NCBI RefSeq assembly: GCF_002020355.1
Contig: NZ_MPZV01000001.1
Location: 1,364,001-1,428,000 of the forward strand
Direction: 5' to 3'
DNA: 64,000 bases
DNA from: Thioclava sediminum
GTDB lineage: Bacteria > Pseudomonadota > Alphaproteobacteria > Rhodobacterales > Rhodobacteraceae
The notes under the pieces are model-generated. The model did no database searches. It saw nothing but the letters and a program-made list of their open reading frames with translations, and was not told the DNA's origin. Below are positions 53,717 to 64,000 of the stretch, piece after piece; within the stretch, counting starts at the first letter, position 1; every line of letters starts with the position of its first letter. The position numbers and the translations under genes are program-made.

Positions 53717-55174
53717 ATGTTTTCGCGCTACAAGAAAGACGGGGCAAAGCCCACCAACGGCAAGGCCGCCCCCCCGCCGCCCGCGCCCGGTGCCGCCAAG
53801 CCGCCGCCGATCGACGCTGCGCCGAAAACGCAGGTGGTCCATCGCAAGATGGGCCCCGCGAAGGTCGCAGCCGACCCGGTGGCCGTCGACAAGGAGAAGA
53901 AGCGCAAGCAGCGCCTTCAGGAACTCAAGGTGGAGCTGCACAAGCGGCTGTTGGAGAACCTGAACCTTGCCGCGCTCGAGCACGCCTCCGAACGCGAACT
54001 GCGCGCAGAGATCGCCGACATCACCGCCGAGGCGATGACCGAGCTATCGGTCGCGCTGAACGCGCAGGACCGTCAGGCGCTGCAGCAGGAGCTTTACGAC
54101 GAGGTCATGGGTCTCGGCCCGCTCGAGCCGCTGCTCAAGGACGAGACCGTCAACGATATTCTGGTCAACGGCCCGCAGCAGATCTTCATCGAACGCGATG
54201 GCAAGCTCGAACTGAGCGACATCACCTTCAAGGATGAACGCCACCTGCTGCGCATCATCGACAAGATCGTGTCGGCCGTGGGTCGTCGCGTCGATGAATC
54301 CAACCCTTACGTCGACGCCCGTCTCGCTGACGGCTCGCGTTTCAATGCGATGGTACCGCCGATCGCGGTGGACGGCTCGCTCGTCTCCATTCGTAAGTTC
54401 AAGAAGGACAAGCTCGGGATCGACGATCTCGTCAATTACGGTGCCTTCACCGAGGAAATGGCGGCCTATCTGCAAGCCGCCGTCGCGACGCGTCTCAACG
54501 TGATCGTCTCGGGCGGGACGGGCTCGGGTAAGACGACGACGCTCAACGCGCTGTCGTCCTTCATCGACAACGCCGAGCGGATTTTGACGATCGAGGACAC
54601 GGCCGAACTTCAGCTGCAACAGACCCATGTGGGCCGGATGGAAAGCCGTCCGCCGAACGTCGAAGGCAAGGGCGCGGTCACTCAGCGCGACTGTCTCAGG
54701 AACGCGCTGCGGATGCGTCCCGACCGTATCATCGTTGGCGAAACGCGCGGCGAGGAAGTCATCGACATGTTGCAGGCCATGAACACCGGCCACGACGGGT
54801 CGATGACCACGATCCACGCGAACTCCGCCCGTGACGGCGTGGCGCGTCTGGAAAACATGATCTCGATGTCGGGCATCGAGATGCCGATGAAGGCGATGCG
54901 CAGCCAGATCGCGTCGGCTGTGAACCTGATCGTGCAGGCCTCGCGCCTGCAGGACGGCTCGCGCCGCATGGTTTCGGTGACGGAAGTCACCGGCATGGAA
55001 GGCGACGTGATCTCGATGCAGGAAGTCTTCCGCTACGAGCGTCTCGGCCTCGCCCCCGACGGCAAGATCATTGGTCGCTTCACCGCGACCGGCGTTCGCT
55101 CGCATTATTCCGATCGGTTCCGGCAATGGGGCTACGACCTGCCGGCTTCGATCTACGAACCCGTGCAGGACTAA
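53717..55174 (+). CDS. cpaF: Secretion ATPase CpaF/TadA
   Basis: This 485-residue hexameric traffic ATPase has a Pro/Ala-rich N-terminus, then the N-domain '[20 protein letters not shown]'. Walker A is GGTGSGKT (266-273), and the Asp box/Walker B region is '[20 protein letters not shown]' and '[20 protein letters not shown]'. The His box '[20 protein letters not shown]' is also present. It powers pilus assembly (and, in Caulobacter, retraction). It is located between cpaE and tadB, 12 bases from tadB. Confidence 0.97.
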
Positions 55175-55186
55175 GGACACCCCGCC

Positions 55187-56146
55187 ATGGCGACCCCCAT
55201 TATCTACCTGCTGATCTTCGTCGCAGTGCTTCTGCTCGTCGAAGGCGTCTATCTGCTGTTCTTCGGCAAATCGATCTCGCTCAACAAGCGGGTTAATCGC
55301 CGCCTCGAGATGCTCAACAAGGGCGAGCGGCGCGAAGAGGTTCTGGAACGTCTGCGCAAGGAAGCGACGCAGCATAACGACGCGCGCTCGATCCCGCTTT
55401 ATTCGCTGCTGGCCGACAAGGCGCAGAAGGGCAACATCGCCTTCTCGCCGATGGCTCTGATCGGCATCATGGCCTTCGCCTGCTTCGCCGCTTTCATCGC
55501 GCTCACGGTGGCCTCGCAGGCGGGGCTCTTCATCCGTATTTTCCTCGCGCTTTTCATGGGCGTGGGCGGCGTGTTCTTCTGGGTCAACTCGAAGGCCAAG
55601 AAGCGCATGGCGCTGATGGAGGAGCAACTTCCCGATGCGGTGGAACTGATGGTGCGCAGCTTGCGCGTTGGCCATCCGCTGGCCTCCGCGATCCAGGCGG
55701 TCGCACGCGAAATCCCCGATCCGATGGGCACCGAGTTCGGCATCATCGCCGATGAGGCCGCCTATGGGCGCAACGTGGCCGAGGCAATCTCGGAAATGGC
55801 CGAACGTCTGGATATGCAGGATCTGCGCTTCCTCGCGGTCGCCGTGTCGATCCAGCAGACCTCGGGCGGCAACCTCGCCGAAGTTCTCGAAGGTCTGTCG
55901 AAGGTCATCCGCTCGCGCTTCCGGCTGTTCCGCCGCGTGAAGGCGATCACCGCAGAGCCGCGCTGGTCGGGCATCTTCCTGTCGGCCTTCCCCGTCGTGG
56001 TGATGGTGATCATTCAGGTCGTCTCGCCCGATTATTACGACGAGGTGAAAACGACCGCCGCCTTCATCCCGGCCGCCATCGTGGTGTTCCTGCTGCTCGG
56101 CGCCAACGTGATCTTCATGAAGGTCATGACAACCATCAAGGTCTGA
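55187..56146 (+). CDS. tadB: Tad platform protein TadB
   Basis: This 319-residue inner-membrane protein of the GspF/TadC family has an N-terminal helix ('IIYLLIFVAVLLLVEGVYLL'), two central helices and the T2SSF domain 'EEQLPDAVELMVRSLRVGHP'. 'IPDPMGTEFGIIADEAAYGR' and 'QQTSGGNLAEVLEGLSKVIR' are conserved. It forms the inner-membrane platform with TadC that CpaF turns. Confidence 0.95.
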   Translation: MATPIIYLLIFVAVLLLVEGVYLLFFGKSISLNKRVNRRLEMLNKGERREEVLERLRKEATQHNDARSIPLYSLLADKAQKGNIAFSPMALIGIMAFACFAAFIALTVASQAGLFIRIFLALFMGVGGVFFWVNSKAKKRMALMEEQLPDAVELMVRSLRVGHPLASAIQAVAREIPDPMGTEFGIIADEAAYGRNVAEAISEMAERLDMQDLRFLAVAVSIQQTSGGNLAEVLEGLSKVIRSRFRLFRRVKAITAEPRWSGIFLSAFPVVVMVIIQVVSPDYYDEVKTTAAFIPAAIVVFLLLGANVIFMKVMTTIKV

Positions 56147-56156
56147 GGAGAGCCCA

Positions 56157-57164
56157 ATGGATTTCGCTGCCATCAACCAGATGCTGACCGATGCGCTCGG
56201 GCCGATGGGGCCGATGATCGCACTGGCGGCGCTCGGCGGGCTTCTGGTGCTCGCCGCGATCCCTGCGCTCCTGAAGAAGCGCGAGGATCCGTTCGACAAG
56301 ATCCGTGGGAAAGCCCCGCGCCAGCCGCGCCAGAATACCGGCGGCAACGCGGATAAAACCAACCCGAAGCTGCGCGACACCCAGAGCGACAAGCTGCAGA
56401 AATATTCGGCCTTCCTCGAGCCGCAAAACGCCGAGGAACTGTCGGAGTCGCGCAAATGGCTGCAATCGGCCGGCTATCGCGGCCCGAATGCCGTGCGCAC
56501 CTTCCACGCGGTCCAGTTCGCGGCGGGTATCGGCCTGCTCGCGCTCGGCTCGCTCTATGTCGTGCTCTACAACTCCGGCGCGCCCGAGGGGCAAAGCATG
56601 GGGATGCTGGGCACGGTGCTCTGGGTGCTCGGCCCCGGGGGCGTCGGCTATTACGGCCCGAAATACTGGGTGAACAAGCGCGTGAAAGCGCGCACCGACG
56701 AGATGCAGAACGGTTTCCCGGACTCGCTCGACATGCTGCTCGTCTGCGTCGAGGCGGGCCAGTCGCTCGATCAGGGGATCATCCGCGTCTCGAAAGAGCT
56801 GAACAAATCCTACCCTGCCCTGTCCGAGGAATTCGCGATGGTCGCCCACGAGATCAAGGCCGGTCTCGACAAGTCGACCGTGCTGCGCAATTTCGGCGAA
56901 CGCTCGGGCGTGCCGGATATTGCAAGCTTCGTGACCGTGATGATCCAGTCGCAGCAATTCGGCACCTCGATCGCCGAAGCCCTGCGCCTCTATGCCGCCG
57001 ACATGCGCGACAAGCGGATCATGCGCGCCGAGGAAGCCGCCAACAAGATCCCGACCAAGATGACGCTGGGCACGATGATGTTCACCGTGCCGCCGCTTCT
57101 GATCATTCTTGTTGGCCCGTCGATCCATGATATGCTTGAGAACTTCAAGAATATGGGCATTTGA
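56157..57164 (+). CDS. tadC: Tad platform protein TadC
   Basis: This 335-residue paralogue of TadB lies 10 bases downstream of it. Three or four membrane spans and the T2SSF domain 'GFPDSLDMLLVCVEAGQSLD' are followed by 'VMIQSQQFGTSIAEALRLYA' and 'MTLGTMMFTVPPLLIILVGP'. It partners TadB in the assembly platform. Confidence 0.95.
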   Translation: MDFAAINQMLTDALGPMGPMIALAALGGLLVLAAIPALLKKREDPFDKIRGKAPRQPRQNTGGNADKTNPKLRDTQSDKLQKYSAFLEPQNAEELSESRKWLQSAGYRGPNAVRTFHAVQFAAGIGLLALGSLYVVLYNSGAPEGQSMGMLGTVLWVLGPGGVGYYGPKYWVNKRVKARTDEMQNGFPDSLDMLLVCVEAGQSLDQGIIRVSKELNKSYPALSEEFAMVAHEIKAGLDKSTVLRNFGERSGVPDIASFVTVMIQSQQFGTSIAEALRLYAADMRDKRIMRAEEAANKIPTKMTLGTMMFTVPPLLIILVGPSIHDMLENFKNMGI

Positions 57165-57168
57165 CGGC

Positions 57169-57738
57169 ATGATCCCAAAGCGCCGCGGCCTGATACTGGC
57201 CGCGCTGACAGTAACCACACTGGCCGCCTGCAACCCGGGCGGCCTTTCGGCTGAGAAACGGGGCGCTTTCGCCCCCGGCACGAAACCCGGTGCGGAGGCG
57301 GTCGACGGGCTTCTCGTCGGTCATCGGCTGATGGAAGCGGGTGAATACGAGCTTGCCCTGAAAGCCTATTACCGCGCGGCGGGCCAGCATGGCGCGACGG
57401 CGGAAATCCTCTCGGGCATCGGTTCGGCCGACCTGAAACTGGGGCGCCTGAACCAGGCCGAGCAGATGCTGCGCCGTGCGACCGAGGCCGATCAGACCTT
57501 CGTGCCGGCGTGGAACAACCTTGGCGTCGTTCTGATGGAGCGCGGCAAATACGCCGAAGCCGCGCGCGTCTTCAAACTCGCCTTCGCGCTGGACAGTGGC
57601 GAATCGGACGCGATCAAGCAAAACCTCAAGCGGGCGCTCGCAAAAATAGAAGAGCCGGGTTACGCTGCGCCACAGGACAAGCAGTTCACGCTCGTCAGGA
57701 AAGGGGTCGGTGACTACCTGCTGCTGACGAAGCACTGA
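57169..57738 (+). CDS. tadD: TPR lipoprotein of the Tad locus, TadD-like 1
   Basis: The product has 189 residues from the ATG at 57169, four bases after the tadC stop and with no strong ribosome site of its own, suggesting coupled translation. Lipobox LAAC puts the lipidated Cys at 21. Three TPR units follow: 'GHRLMEAGEYELALKAYYRA', 'GIGSADLKLGRLNQAEQMLR' and 'NLGVVLMERGKYAEAARVFK'. TadD is required for outer-membrane placement of the secretin in other Tad systems, acting as pilotin. A second TPR lipoprotein follows. Confidence 0.88.
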   Translation: MIPKRRGLILAALTVTTLAACNPGGLSAEKRGAFAPGTKPGAEAVDGLLVGHRLMEAGEYELALKAYYRAAGQHGATAEILSGIGSADLKLGRLNQAEQMLRRATEADQTFVPAWNNLGVVLMERGKYAEAARVFKLAFALDSGESDAIKQNLKRALAKIEEPGYAAPQDKQFTLVRKGVGDYLLLTKH

Positions 57739-57765
57739 GGCTCGAGCAAAAAGGACGCAGGTAAC

Positions 57766-58638
57766 ATGCGCCACCCGATCTTTCTGGCAGCCTTGGCTGG
57801 CTGCGCGATGACTCTCTCCGGCTGTATGGGCAATAACAGCGACGCCGAAGTCGCGCGCGCGATGAAAAGCGTGAATGCCGTCGATGAGACCAACCTTACC
57901 GACATCATGCTGACGGTCGCCGATCCGAACGAGGCCGTGACCTATTTCACCCGGCTGTCCAACGACCATCCCGACCGCATCGATGCCAAGCGCGGGCTCG
58001 CGAAATCGCTGGTGCGCGCGCAAAAGCCCGTGCAGGCCGTGAAGGTCTGGCAAGAGGTTCTCACGATGCCGGGCGCGACCAATGACGACCGCGTGTCGCT
58101 GGCCGAGGCGCAGATCCGCTCCAATGACTGGTCCGGGGCGAAGGCCACGCTGAACACCGTGCCGCCGACCCACGAGACCTATGACCGCTACCGTCTCGAA
58201 GCGATGGTGGCCGATAGTGACAAACAGTGGAAGAAGGCCGACAGCTTCTACGAAACCGCGGCGGGCCTGACCACGAAGCCCGCGGGTATCTACAACAACT
58301 GGGGCTTCTCCAAGCTCAGCCGCGGAGATGCCGCAGGCGCCGAGAAGCTGTTCAAGGAAGCGCTCACCTACGATCCGACCCGCTTCACCACGAAGAACAA
58401 CCTCGTGCTCGCGCGGGCCAGCCAGGGGAAATACGACCTGCCCGTGATCGACATGACTCAGACGGAACGCGCGCAGCTTCTGTATACGGCGGGTCTGGCG
58501 GCGGTGAAGCGCGGCGACGTCAATATCGGCAAGACGCTGTTGCAGGACGCGATCGACACCAATCCGCAGTATTTCGCGGAGGCCGACCGGGCGCTGAAGG
58601 CGCTCGATCAGGGATCGTCGAGCGCACTGAAAGGCTAA
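57766..58638 (+). CDS. TPR lipoprotein of the Tad locus, TadD-like 2
   Basis: This 290-residue protein has AAGGACGCAGGTAAC as ribosome site. Lipobox LSGC puts the lipidated Cys at 20. TPR-like repeats span residues 50-285: 'VTYFTRLSNDHPDRIDAKRG', 'IYNNWGFSKLSRGDAAGAEK', then 'LYTAGLAAVKRGDVNIGKTL'. It is longer than TadD-like 1, and the two have little direct identity, so they are not a simple tandem duplication. It probably shares pilotin or assembly-scaffold duties. The next gene, prepilin peptidase, starts four bases later. Confidence 0.85.
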   Translation: MRHPIFLAALAGCAMTLSGCMGNNSDAEVARAMKSVNAVDETNLTDIMLTVADPNEAVTYFTRLSNDHPDRIDAKRGLAKSLVRAQKPVQAVKVWQEVLTMPGATNDDRVSLAEAQIRSNDWSGAKATLNTVPPTHETYDRYRLEAMVADSDKQWKKADSFYETAAGLTTKPAGIYNNWGFSKLSRGDAAGAEKLFKEALTYDPTRFTTKNNLVLARASQGKYDLPVIDMTQTERAQLLYTAGLAAVKRGDVNIGKTLLQDAIDTNPQYFAEADRALKALDQGSSSALKG

Positions 58639-58642
58639 GAGG

Positions 58643-59143
58643 ATGCTCGGTCTCGCCCCGCCCCTGTCGGCGCTGATCTTTCTGGTGCTGATCACCCCGG
58701 TTTGCGCCTGGGTGGTCTTCACCGACCTCAAATACATGAAAATTCGCAACAAGGCGGTGCTGGCGCTTCTGGTGATTTTCGCTTTTGCGGGGCCGTTCCT
58801 CTTGCCGATCGACGTCTATGCCTGGCGGTGGAGCCACGCGCTGGTCGTCTTCGTGATCGGCTACATCCTGAACCAGATCGCGCATTTCGGTGCGGGCGAC
58901 GCGAAATTCGCAGCCGCAGCCGCGCCGTTCTTCTCGCATGAACTGTTCGACGTGCAGTTGACGATGTTCCTGCTCTGCGCCTTCCTGCTTGCGGCCTTCG
59001 CCGCGCACCGGATCTTTCGCGCAATCCCGGCCGTGGTGAAGGCCACGCCCGACTGGGTGAGCTGGAAGCGCAAGGACTTCCCGATGGGGCTGGCGCTGGT
59101 CGGCACGCTCTGGGCGTATCTCCTGCTCGTGGCCCTCGGCTGA
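58643..59143 (+). CDS. cpaA: A24-family prepilin peptidase (TadV/CpaA)
   Basis: This 166-residue aspartic membrane protease of the short (methylase-lacking) class is predicted with five to six helices. The catalytic Asp residues are D28 in 'VVFTDLKYMKIRN' and D86 in 'HFGAGDAKFAAA' (GxGD motif). It would cleave the leader of the two GAVTVDW pilin-like proteins after Gly. The last helix ends at the C-terminus. It is four bases after TadD-like 2. Confidence 0.93.
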   Translation: MLGLAPPLSALIFLVLITPVCAWVVFTDLKYMKIRNKAVLALLVIFAFAGPFLLPIDVYAWRWSHALVVFVIGYILNQIAHFGAGDAKFAAAAAPFFSHELFDVQLTMFLLCAFLLAAFAAHRIFRAIPAVVKATPDWVSWKRKDFPMGLALVGTLWAYLLLVALG

Positions 59144-61561: not shown

Positions 61562-62464
61562 TCAGGCAGTCAAACCCTCAGGTTCGGGCAGATTGTTCGC
61601 GCGGCAGCAGGCAGTGACCGTGTTGGCCAGAAGGCAGGCGATGGTCATCGGGCCGACGCCGCCCGGCACCGGGGTGATCGCGCCCGCGACCTCCTTGGCG
61701 CTGTCGAAATCGACATCGCCCACCAGCCGGGTCTTGCCCTCGCCCTTCTCGGGCGCGTCGATCCGGTTGATACCGACATCGATCACGGTCGCGCCGGGCT
61801 TCACCCAGTCGCCCGGGATCATGCGCGGGCGGCCCACGGCTGCCACGAGGATATCGGCGCCCCGGCAGACATCAGCGAGATCCTTGGTGCGGCTATGCGC
61901 GATGGTGACGGTGCAGCTGTCGCGCAGCAGCAGCTGCGCCATCGGCTTTCCGACGATGTTGGAGCGCCCCACCACGACGGCGTTCAGCCCCGAGAGGCTG
62001 CCCAGCTGGTCGCGCAGCATCATCAGGCAGCCCAGCGGCGTGCAGGGCACCATCGATTTCTGCCCGGTGCCCAGAAGGCCCACATTGAGGATATGGAAGC
62101 CATCGACATCCTTCGCGGGGGTGATCGAGTTGATCACCTTCTCCTCGTCGATATGATCGGGCAACGGCAGCTGCACGAGGATGCCATGCACCGCCGGATC
62201 GGCGTTGAGCTTTTCGACCAGTGCCAGCAGATCGGCCTCGGAGGTCTCCGCGGGCAGCTTGTGCTCGTAGGAGTTCATCCCGGCTTCGAGCGTCTGCTTG
62301 CCCTTGTTGCGCACATAGACCTGACTGGCCGGGTCTTCGCCCACCAGAACCACCGCGAGGCCCGGCGTGATGCCGTGCTCCTCTTGCAGCCGGGTGACAT
62401 GCTCGGCCACTTTCTCGCGCACGCTCGCTGCGAAGGCCTTCCCGTCGATGATCGTCGCCGTCAT
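61562..62464 (-). CDS. folD: Methylene-tetrahydrofolate dehydrogenase/cyclohydrolase FolD1
   Basis: This 300-residue protein keeps all three catalytic residues at E. coli positions: Lys54 in '[15 protein letters not shown]', Gln98 in 'GILVQLPLP' and Asp121 in '[13 protein letters not shown]'. The NADP domain has '[18 protein letters not shown]' and '[17 protein letters not shown]'. It interconverts methylene-, methenyl- and 10-formyl-tetrahydrofolate. It is the last gene of the fhs-aroQ-folD2-folD1 run, 12 bases after folD2. It is the functional bifunctional enzyme of the pair by residue content. Confidence 0.96.
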
Positions 62465-62476
62465 TTCATTCCTCCG

Positions 62477-63355
62477 TCACTCCGCCGCCGCGAAGGTCGT
62501 GCGGTAATGGTCCATCTGCATGCGGGTCGCGCGGACCGCGTTGTTCATCAGCGTCGAGACCGTGACCGGCCCCACCCCGCCCGGGACGGGCGTGATCCAG
62601 CCCGCCACTTCGGCGCAGCTGTCGAAATCGGCGTCGCCCACGGTGCGCCCCTCGACCCGGTTGATGCCGATATCGATCAGCGCCGCGCCCGGCTTGAGCA
62701 TTTCGCCATGCACCAGCCCCGGCTTACCGACCGCGACGAACACGGCATCGGCGGCGCGCGAATGCACCGAGACCTGCCGCGTCATATGGTGGCACACGGT
62801 GACGGTGGCGCCGAGTCCCATCATCAGGAAGGCGATCGGCTTGCCCACGATTTCCGAGTGGCCGATCACGCAGACATTGAGCCCTTCGGTCTGGAGCGGA
62901 AGGGATTTCAGGATCTCCACCGCCGCGACGGCGGTGCAGGGGCCGAGCTCCAGCTCGTTATAGACGATGTTGCCGATCGAGGACGGGTGCATCCCCTCCA
63001 CGTCCTTGAGCGGATGAACCGCCTTCTGCAGAACCTTGACCGGGATATGGGCGGGCAGCGGGCGCTGGATGATGATGCCGTTGACGCGCGGGTCGGCGTT
63101 CAGACCGGCCAGCACGCCCTGAAGCTGTTCGAGGCTGATCGTCTCGGGGTAGTTGCGCACCTCGAAGGCCACGCCGGCTTTCTCGGCGTATTTCTTCTGA
63201 TTGCGCACATAAAGTTCGGCCGCTGCGACATCGCCGACCGAGATCGAGACGAGGCGCGGCGCCCAGCCTGCCTCCGAAAGCCTCTGTGCCTCGGCATAGG
63301 TCTCGTCCAGCTTGACCTGCGCAAGCGCCTTTCCGTCAATGATCGTGGCGCTCAT
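62477..63355 (-). CDS. FolD paralogue 2 with substituted catalytic residues
   Basis: This 292-residue protein is clearly FolD-like over its full length ('[20 protein letters not shown]', 'CVIGHSEIVGKPIAFLMMGL', '[19 protein letters not shown]'). The Lys54 position is Gln53 in 'ELYVRNQKKYAEKAG', the Asp121 position is Glu120 in 'LKDVEGMHPSSIG', and the Gln98 equivalent Gln97 is kept in 'GIIIQRPLP'. The Lys is needed for cyclohydrolase activity in studied enzymes, and a Lys-to-Gln mutant of the human enzyme is known to keep dehydrogenase activity. FolD2 may therefore be a dehydrogenase-only or repurposed protein. The start overlaps the aroQ 3' end by 20 bases. Confidence 0.9.
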   Translation of the reverse strand: MSATIIDGKALAQVKLDETYAEAQRLSEAGWAPRLVSISVGDVAAAELYVRNQKKYAEKAGVAFEVRNYPETISLEQLQGVLAGLNADPRVNGIIIQRPLPAHIPVKVLQKAVHPLKDVEGMHPSSIGNIVYNELELGPCTAVAAVEILKSLPLQTEGLNVCVIGHSEIVGKPIAFLMMGLGATVTVCHHMTRQVSVHSRAADAVFVAVGKPGLVHGEMLKPGAALIDIGINRVEGRTVGDADFDSCAEVAGWITPVPGGVGPVTVSTLMNNAVRATRMQMDHYRTTFAAAE

Positions 63356-63656
63356 CGGGGTCTCCCTTGCCCAGAACCTGTTCTTCCTGCGCGATGAAAT
63401 GCTCGATCATTTCGCGCCACAGACGGTCGGCGAGATCGGGATCGAGCCCGGCAGGACCGGCGGCGGCGCGGACCTTTGCCACCACATCCTCGACCCGGTC
63501 GGGGATGCGTGCGGGCCAGCCATTTCCCTGTTTGAGTTCCGCCGCACGGGCGATCAGCCGGGTGCGCGCACCGAGCATCTCGACCAGCTCCCGGTCGAGC
63601 GCATCGATGGCGACGCGCAGCTCTTCCATCGTGTGCAGGTCTGACGGAGATTTCAT
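63336..63656 (-). CDS. AroQ-type chorismate mutase
   Basis: The product has 106 residues from the ATG at 63656 (MKSPSDLHTMEELRVAIDAL), with GGGAG eight bases upstream. It is all-helical. 'MEELRVAIDALDRELVEMLG' and 'ARTRLIARAAELKQGNGWPA' give the Arg, Lys and Glu pattern of the AroQ fold, with 'WREMIEHFIAQEEQ' at the end. It converts chorismate to prephenate for Phe and Tyr. It lies between fhs and folD2 and overlaps folD2 by 20 bases, so it is translated with the C1 genes, a link with no obvious pathway reason. Confidence 0.88.
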   Translation of the reverse strand: MKSPSDLHTMEELRVAIDALDRELVEMLGARTRLIARAAELKQGNGWPARIPDRVEDVVAKVRAAAGPAGLDPDLADRLWREMIEHFIAQEEQVLGKGDPDERHDH

Positions 63657-63723: not shown

Positions 63724-64000
63724 CTAGAACAAACCCGTGATGCGGCCTTCGGCATCGAGGCCGATCGTCTCCGCAGCCGGGTGCCGGGGAAGGCCCGGCA
63801 TGGTCATGATTTCACCGCAGATCACCACGACGAACCCCGCCCCCGCCGAGAGCCGCACTTCGCGGATCGGCAGCGTATGGCCCGAGGGCGCCCCGCGCAG
63901 CGTCGGGTCCGCGCTGAAGGAATACTGCGTCTTGGCCACGCAGATCGGCAGGTTGCCATAGCCCGCGGCCTCCCAGTCGCGAAGCTGGTTGAGGATCTTC
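63724..64000 (-). CDS. fhs: Formate--tetrahydrofolate ligase, C-terminal end (runs off the window)
   Basis: The last 91 codons of fhs are visible. '[20 protein letters not shown]' and '[20 protein letters not shown]' then '[18 protein letters not shown]' are the conserved C-terminus of the family. The N-terminal part with the ATP P-loop is outside the window. Fhs makes 10-formyl-THF from formate, which FolD1 then reduces. It heads the operon with aroQ and the two folD genes. Confidence 0.96.

Follow-up and report, generated by a model that had tools for sequence, protein, structure and literature searches.

The window, by which we mean the whole analysed stretch of 64,000 nucleotides from Thioclava sediminum, carries two folD-like genes side by side on the reverse strand. 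The gene folD2 (62477..63355, (-)) is an intact open reading frame (ORF) of 292 amino acids with Q53, Q97, R98, E120, M122, H166 and H190, and it is followed after 12 nt by folD1 (61562..62464, (-)), an intact ORF of 300 amino acids with K54, Q98, D121 and R167. A chorismate-mutase-like ORF (PF01817; 63336..63755, (-)) overlaps folD2 by 20 nt and has its probable start at 63656, past the stop of fhs, the gene for formate-THF ligase, of which only the 3' end lies here (63724..64000, (-)) and the rest beyond the window (locus L084, 3725-5422). In the direction of transcription the order is ftsH-like, methyltransferase-like, MOSC-like, fhs, chorismate-mutase-like, folD2, folD1 and then a LytTR-protein gene, with the three labels upstream of fhs assigned by eye. 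In a profile search, the genome of the window proved to contain just two PF00763 matches and a single fhs and to be without a match to FchA (PF04961), so that folD2 is not accompanied by an fchA gene in this genome. FolD2 contains PF00763 (99.5 bits) and PF02882 (184.4 bits), both above cut-off, and no other Pfam domain above cut-off; FolD1 likewise has both domains. FolD1 reaches 533.7 bits against the NCBIfam model NF010785 (cut-off 396), and for FolD2 none of the best 25 of 30 NCBIfam FolD models reaches its cut-off, the top one being NF010786 with 275.2 against 421 bits.

Of the 80 top-ranking named loci (out of 511), 61 have the chorismate-mutase-like ORF close to folD2; that of the window also matches TIGR01803 and isochorismate lyase models with scores below their cut-offs. 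In one genome of the class sample (G015) folD2 (L099, 7962-9044) directly follows a gene for chorismate synthase (PF01264), which is a second, perhaps chance, link between folD2 and a chorismate enzyme. Elsewhere in the window, a cluster resembling a Flp/Tad pilus (secretion ATPase, TadB/TadC-like and TPR proteins, prepilin peptidase-like protein) was recognised by eye at 53717-59143 on the forward strand.

FolD2 aligns with E. coli FolD (1b0a) without gaps at the key sites, with the motifs YVRNQ, IQRPLP and KDVEG in place of YVASK, VQLPLP and KDVDG. Q53 (codon at 63197..63199, (-)) corresponds to E. coli Lys54, Q97 and R98 (63062..63067, (-)) to Gln98 and Leu99 and E120 (62996..62998, (-)) to Asp121, as computed from the ORF start, and the computed position of the His166 codon, which is Arg in FolD1 and Arg173 in the human enzyme, is 62858..62860 (-). 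As FolD1 has K/Q/D at these three sites, the alignment confirms the contrast between Q53/Q97/E120 and Lys54/Gln98/Asp121 that had been drawn in a preliminary description of this DNA. We then compiled 247 distinct FolD sequences, leaving out matches that were shorter than 230 residues, contained an internal stop or were identical to one already kept; L147/L148 and L166 are absent from this set as their matches overran their own stop codons. At positions 50/54/98/121 (E. coli numbering) 110 of the 247 show Y/Q/Q/E, 135 Y/K/Q/D and two Y/K/D/D. Thus in all 110 distinct FolD2 sequences Lys54 is replaced by Gln and Asp121 by Glu, and of the three residues expected in a bifunctional FolD only Gln98 is kept. 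The combination Q/Q/E was also found in 83 of 83 homologues, namely in the best 80 of 511 named-genome stretches, kept from a scan with six peptides of which two contain Q53 or E120, and in L084-L086. FolD2 sequences that protein or family searches yielded agree in these residues as far as they were read. With the same residues fixed in 83/83 homologues and in 110/110 distinct sequences, chance can be excluded.

Further changes accompany K54Q: V38S, L99R, D121E and R167H occur in 110/110 FolD2, as do A145, W255 and others, F123M is found in 108/110, and the changes N127S and P143A are also seen in the FolD2 set. The preliminary description was right about the altered residues but had missed the additional fixed changes V38S, L99R, F123M and R167H. 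An alignment of 32 rows from both paralogues shows no variation at Y49 and Q97 or within GxSxIVGKP and PVPGGVGP. It had also been considered that a lysine of the KK following Q53 might take the place of Lys54, and this idea did not survive the alignment of the 110 FolD2. There, 63 sequences have Gln and 11 have Lys directly after Q53, and at the position that follows 104/110 have Lys or Arg. As the first position is rarely Lys, and as E. coli FolD possesses K56 besides K54 as well, we rejected a rescue by the next lysine.

The AlphaFold model of FolD2 has a mean pLDDT of 90.9 (68-73 at residues 121-140), matches FolD/MTHFD structures with a TM score of about 0.9 and shows residues 44-60 as one helix carrying Y49 and Q53. 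The corresponding helix alpha2 of E. coli FolD bears Y50 and K54 (PMC5688156, which like PMC3368264 and PMC3338484 is cited here from excerpts). As V38S, L99R, D121E and R167H are fixed together with K54Q, the pocket of FolD2 has been rebuilt rather than left to decay.

What these substitutions might mean for catalysis can be estimated from the E. coli and human enzymes. In the excerpt on E. coli FolD, K54 is essential for the cyclohydrolase, with K54N keeping ~19% dehydrogenase and undetectable cyclohydrolase activity, and Q98H, in which Y50 packs against V38, keeping ~8% dehydrogenase and ~1% cyclohydrolase activity (PMC5688156). In the excerpts from two other papers the lysine takes part in the cyclohydrolase reaction by proton transfer or acid-base catalysis, Gln100/98 helps to place it and Asp125/121 binds the pterin (PMC3368264, PMC3338484); human Lys56 together with Gln100 also supports hydride transfer, i.e. 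the dehydrogenase step (PMC3368264). From these roles and the E. coli mutants, the exchange of Lys by Gln in FolD2 should cost the cyclohydrolase activity first, and, in view of the dual role of Lys56 and the dehydrogenase activity of only about a fifth in K54N, it may lower the dehydrogenase activity of FolD2 too. It could be argued that FolD2 is still bifunctional, Arg98 or Glu120 replacing Lys54, and simply represents a second, differently regulated FolD. L99R, D121E and K54Q are indeed fixed together in 110/110 sequences and thereby bring a new charged group next to Q97, the human residue at the L99 site (Leu101) is described in the excerpt as a substrate-site residue (PMC3368264), and two annotated relatives carry the bifunctional name. 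We nevertheless consider this unlikely, as the residue essential for the E. coli cyclohydrolase is the one that has been lost, as a lysine-less cyclohydrolase of the FolD fold was not found in the literature examined and as another FolD is present in 14/14 FolD2 genomes of the class sample.

Regarding the cofactor, human Arg173 and Ser197 (with His196) bind the 2'-phosphate of NADP according to the same excerpt (PMC3368264). FolD1 has Arg and Ser at these sites and E. coli FolD Ala and Arg. FolD2 shows His in 110/110 and 108/110 sequences and is without Lys or Arg in 110 and 109 of 110, respectively, which hints at NAD+ rather than NADP+ as the cofactor, a hint that is thin since some canonical FolDs (L230, L239) are also without a basic residue there.

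To place FolD2 among other FolDs, we reconstructed a tree of 88 rows, including L147 and L166 after trimming at their own stop. FolD2 forms a single clade with a support of 100/99 and a stem length of 1.56, apart from folD1 of the Rhodobacterales, in a tree whose bootstrap had not settled, which contains several long branches and in which the join of FolD1 to the rest is weak (20/85). The two proteins of the window share about 43% identity. Since the FolD2 clade is long-stemmed, the tandem pair is to be seen as a gene neighbourhood and not as a fresh duplication; a recent duplicate, as the term tandem paralogue had implied, was rejected for this old clade, whose members lie apart from the other FolD in 12/14 class-sample genomes. 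In comparison with the window genes, FolD2 has a dN/dS of 0.065-0.157 and FolD1 one of 0.085-0.182 (four pairs each); the values for two FolD2 pairs at greater distance are 0.38 and 0.20. FolD2 is thus under purifying selection, and on its conservation and dN/dS a decaying gene was rejected.

The closest FolD2 among the best 80 of 511 named-genome stretches is that of Thioclava sp. JE_KL1 (99%). FolD2 was found in 17 of 121 Rhodobacterales genomes, ten with at least 67% identity (window-type) and seven with 54-61%, and the two further members of the window's genus that the sample contains are without it. The Gln/Glu pair, which had been discussed for the Rhodobacterales, could be counted in this order but is not confined to it, with FolD2 occurring in 14/289 genomes of the Alphaproteobacteria class sample. 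In the phylum sample FolD2 is present at an identity of at least 58% in 15/398 genomes, all of them Alphaproteobacteria; the other 24 matches show 41-45% identity and come from other classes, and the 17 of these 24 that were read are all K/Q/D. A record named Exiguobacterium profundum (L030, 8001-8873) contains a FolD2 with 87% identity in the gene order of Rhodobacterales, for which reason this Bacillota name probably belongs to a misnamed MAG. Using tblastn, the best relatives on plasmids were 57% (Paracoccus aminovorans, two records) and 52% identical (Ponticoccus alexandrii), and among the ten phage matches listed of 53 the identity was at most 41%. A DNA pattern for the FolD2 signature matched 12/289 class genomes, with three hits that gave no FolD match (L091, L093, L098), and it missed five FolD2 genomes that the protein search had detected. 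One MAG (G407) possesses two FolD2 copies (L151, L152) plus a canonical FolD.

In the 80 top-ranking of the 511 named loci, folD2 is preceded by fhs in 77/78 and followed by folD1 in 77/79 testable cases. The retention of folD2 beside fhs and an intact folD, as noted in the preliminary description, was thus borne out, also in view of the purifying selection. This neighbourhood, together with the dimeric nature of canonical FolD as given in the excerpt (PMC5688156), might be taken to suggest that FolD2 is a subunit or regulator with little catalysis of its own that tunes FolD1 in a heterodimer. Such a role is improbable, as in 12/14 class-sample genomes FolD2 and the other FolD are encoded on separate contigs or at a distance of over 100 kb, and as FolD2, at ~43% identity to FolD1, retains the motifs of the NAD(P) and folate sites.

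In some relatives, other neighbours of folD2 belong to C1 metabolism. L059 and L073, from MAGs under the names Hyphomicrobiales and Rhizobiales, have the order fhs-folD2-tmm, and their opposite strand carries genes resembling gmaS and mgs, these names being given by eye and from 78-84% identity to genes of L107. In L107-L110 and L113 folD2 is near tdm, tmm and gmaS, and in L107 the models for TMAO demethylase and TMA monooxygenase as well as TIGR03105 all score above cut-off. A Ponticoccus plasmid has the order fdhF-fhs-folD-folD2-tdm, a genome of 1.2 Mb (L103) carries soxB and soxA (sarcosine oxidase) beside folD2, and in L219 and L220 a gene for formate dehydrogenase alpha, above the profile cut-off in L220, is located directly upstream of folD2. 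No recognised C1 neighbour was seen in 9/14 class genomes among the neighbours scanned. As a marker for GmaS we used TIGR03105, which is named type III glutamate-ammonia ligase and was equated with GmaS by gene context. The marker is absent from the genome of the window, and among Rhodobacterales it is present in 2/10 genomes with the window-type FolD2 versus 32/104 without FolD2 (p 0.72), while all seven genomes with the 54-61% type possess it (7/7, p 0.0005). From this difference, the methylamine link belongs to the sister group with 54-61% identity; a methylamine role for the FolD2 of the window is not supported, and only fhs and folD1 can be regarded as its firm context. The neighbours also bear on whether FolD2 could act on another pterin or folate form instead of being a methylene-THF dehydrogenase. 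The pterin-binding residue is changed in all sequences (D121E) and L99R, F123M, N127S and P143A come in addition, but Y50, Q98 and the PVPGGVGP motif are retained and some relatives have THF enzymes as neighbours (Fhs; Tdm and SoxA with GCV_T-like parts), so that we regard a different substrate as rather improbable.

If FolD2 does not hydrolyse methenyl-THF, it should not be the sole FolD of a genome unless another cyclohydrolase is present. In agreement with this, a further gene with a PF00763 match was found in each of the 14 class-sample genomes that carry FolD2. The partner is K/Q/D in 13/14, and in G015, the single informative FolD2 genome for this test, it is K/E/D (Q98E) and lies beside an FTCD_C gene, the frame after the folD stop encoding a short, stand-alone protein. 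Taken alone, the presence of a K/Q/D FolD in the same genome as FolD2 is weak evidence, as nearly every genome has a FolD (259/289 class genomes with a match). Together with the K54N data in the excerpt (PMC5688156) it nevertheless speaks for the earlier prediction that FolD2 would have lost the cyclohydrolase and kept the dehydrogenase. The FTCD_C gene of G015 is putatively fchA-like, a name that rests on adjacency since PF04961 (FTCD_C) also includes cyclodeaminases.

FTCD_C matches above cut-off were found in 4/289 class genomes, one of which (G283) is not among the 259 with a FolD match. In the other three, the FolD that adjoins the FTCD_C gene lies outside the FolD2 clade, keeps Lys54 and has Gln98 changed (Q98E in G015, Q98D in G148 and in G212). 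Among the FchA-negative class genomes with a completely read FolD, Gln98 is present in 56/56 and K/Q/D in 55/56, the exception being G273. This difference (3/3 Q98E/D versus these 56; Fisher p 3e-5) refers to a nonrandom set of FchA-negative FolDs, for which those with the lowest scores, those of two-copy genomes and part of those with the highest scores had been chosen, with most of the 259 outside it; G220 with its partial FolD was kept out, and G051 and G232, with FTCD_C below cut-off, were counted as FchA-negative. The pattern of Q98 and FchA supports, at the level of sequence, the residue rule on independent cases. The FolDs with altered Q98 and retained Lys54 (L147/L148, L169 and L171) may represent a second natural split of the two activities. 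In a genome of 0.9 Mb (G273) the sole FolD match (L166, 997-1860) has Q/R/Q/D at positions 50/54/98/121 and an altered PGGVGP motif, and this genome shows no FchA match.

We therefore favour, as the probable reading, that FolD2 is a methylene-THF enzyme that works as dehydrogenase only, probably with NAD+, that FolD1 would carry out the cyclohydrolase step, and that both together with Fhs would form a small module for C1 oxidation. Methylene-THF derived from glycine cleavage, serine or demethylation would be the substrate of FolD2, which would convert 5,10-methylene-THF into 5,10-methenyl-THF, presumably with reduction of NAD+. Methenyl-THF would then be converted into 10-formyl-THF by FolD1 or spontaneously, the latter being possible according to the excerpt (PMC5688156), and FolD1 would also continue to serve biosynthesis. 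Flux in the oxidative direction would end with Fhs working in reverse, from 10-formyl-THF to formate with a gain of ATP. That the reverse reaction of Fhs yields formate and ATP is established biochemistry. A more specific version, which we put forward only tentatively and hold to be doubtful as a whole, is that of an unnamed Alphaproteobacterial subfamily of NAD+-driven dehydrogenases with the rebuilt site Gln53-Gln97-Arg98-Glu120, in which Arg98 would be catalytic and which with FolD1 and Fhs might be the bacterial counterpart of the division of labour between Mtd1 and Ade3 in yeast.

In any case FolD2 is an old, misnamed subfamily whose difference from FolD is hidden by the names in databases. 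We found no description of it in the literature, a weak negative result as the search term FolD also matches the word fold. If the subfamily is indeed without methenyl-THF hydrolysis, models of C1 flux that are built from bifunctional names count one activity twice and also miss a possible NADH-yielding route of C1 oxidation. The fixed changes of FolD2 moreover offer a natural test of the residues that split the two FolD activities. As binding of carolacton needs the FolD lysine according to the excerpt (PMC5688156), and as this lysine is absent, FolD2 should not bind carolacton in vitro.

Compared with known systems, FolD2 resembles the bifunctional FolD/MTHFD enzymes (E. coli, 1b0a; human, DC301) in both Pfam domains, the full-length alignment (43% identity to E. 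coli FolD), the fold (TM about 0.9) and the retained Y50 and Q98. It differs from them in the replaced Lys54 and Asp121, in L99R, V38S and R167H and in remaining below the cut-offs of the best 25 of 30 NCBIfam models. Yeast Mtd1 (1edz), known as a monofunctional NAD-dependent methylene-THF dehydrogenase, would be similar in the proposed role, i.e. oxidation only, with cyclohydrolase and formyl-THF synthetase provided separately, but it is not a close relative, being the weakest of 27 PDB matches (E 2e-11). In Clostridium perfringens a FolD/FchA pair is known, and the FolD of P. productus is monofunctional and NADP-dependent (PMC6443876). The proposed separation of cyclohydrolase and dehydrogenase would be common to FolD2 and these bacterial FolDs, some of which are paired with FchA. 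In the FolD-FchA pairs of Alphaproteobacteria (G015, G148, G212), in contrast, Lys54 is kept and Gln98 changed, which is a solution different from that of FolD2, and the genome of the window is without FchA. Methylobacterium uses a separate dehydrogenase MtdA and a cyclohydrolase Fch for its C1 metabolism (PMC4543880), so that the split of functions would be alike here as well, although in FolD2 itself the only Pfam domains above cut-off are those of FolD.
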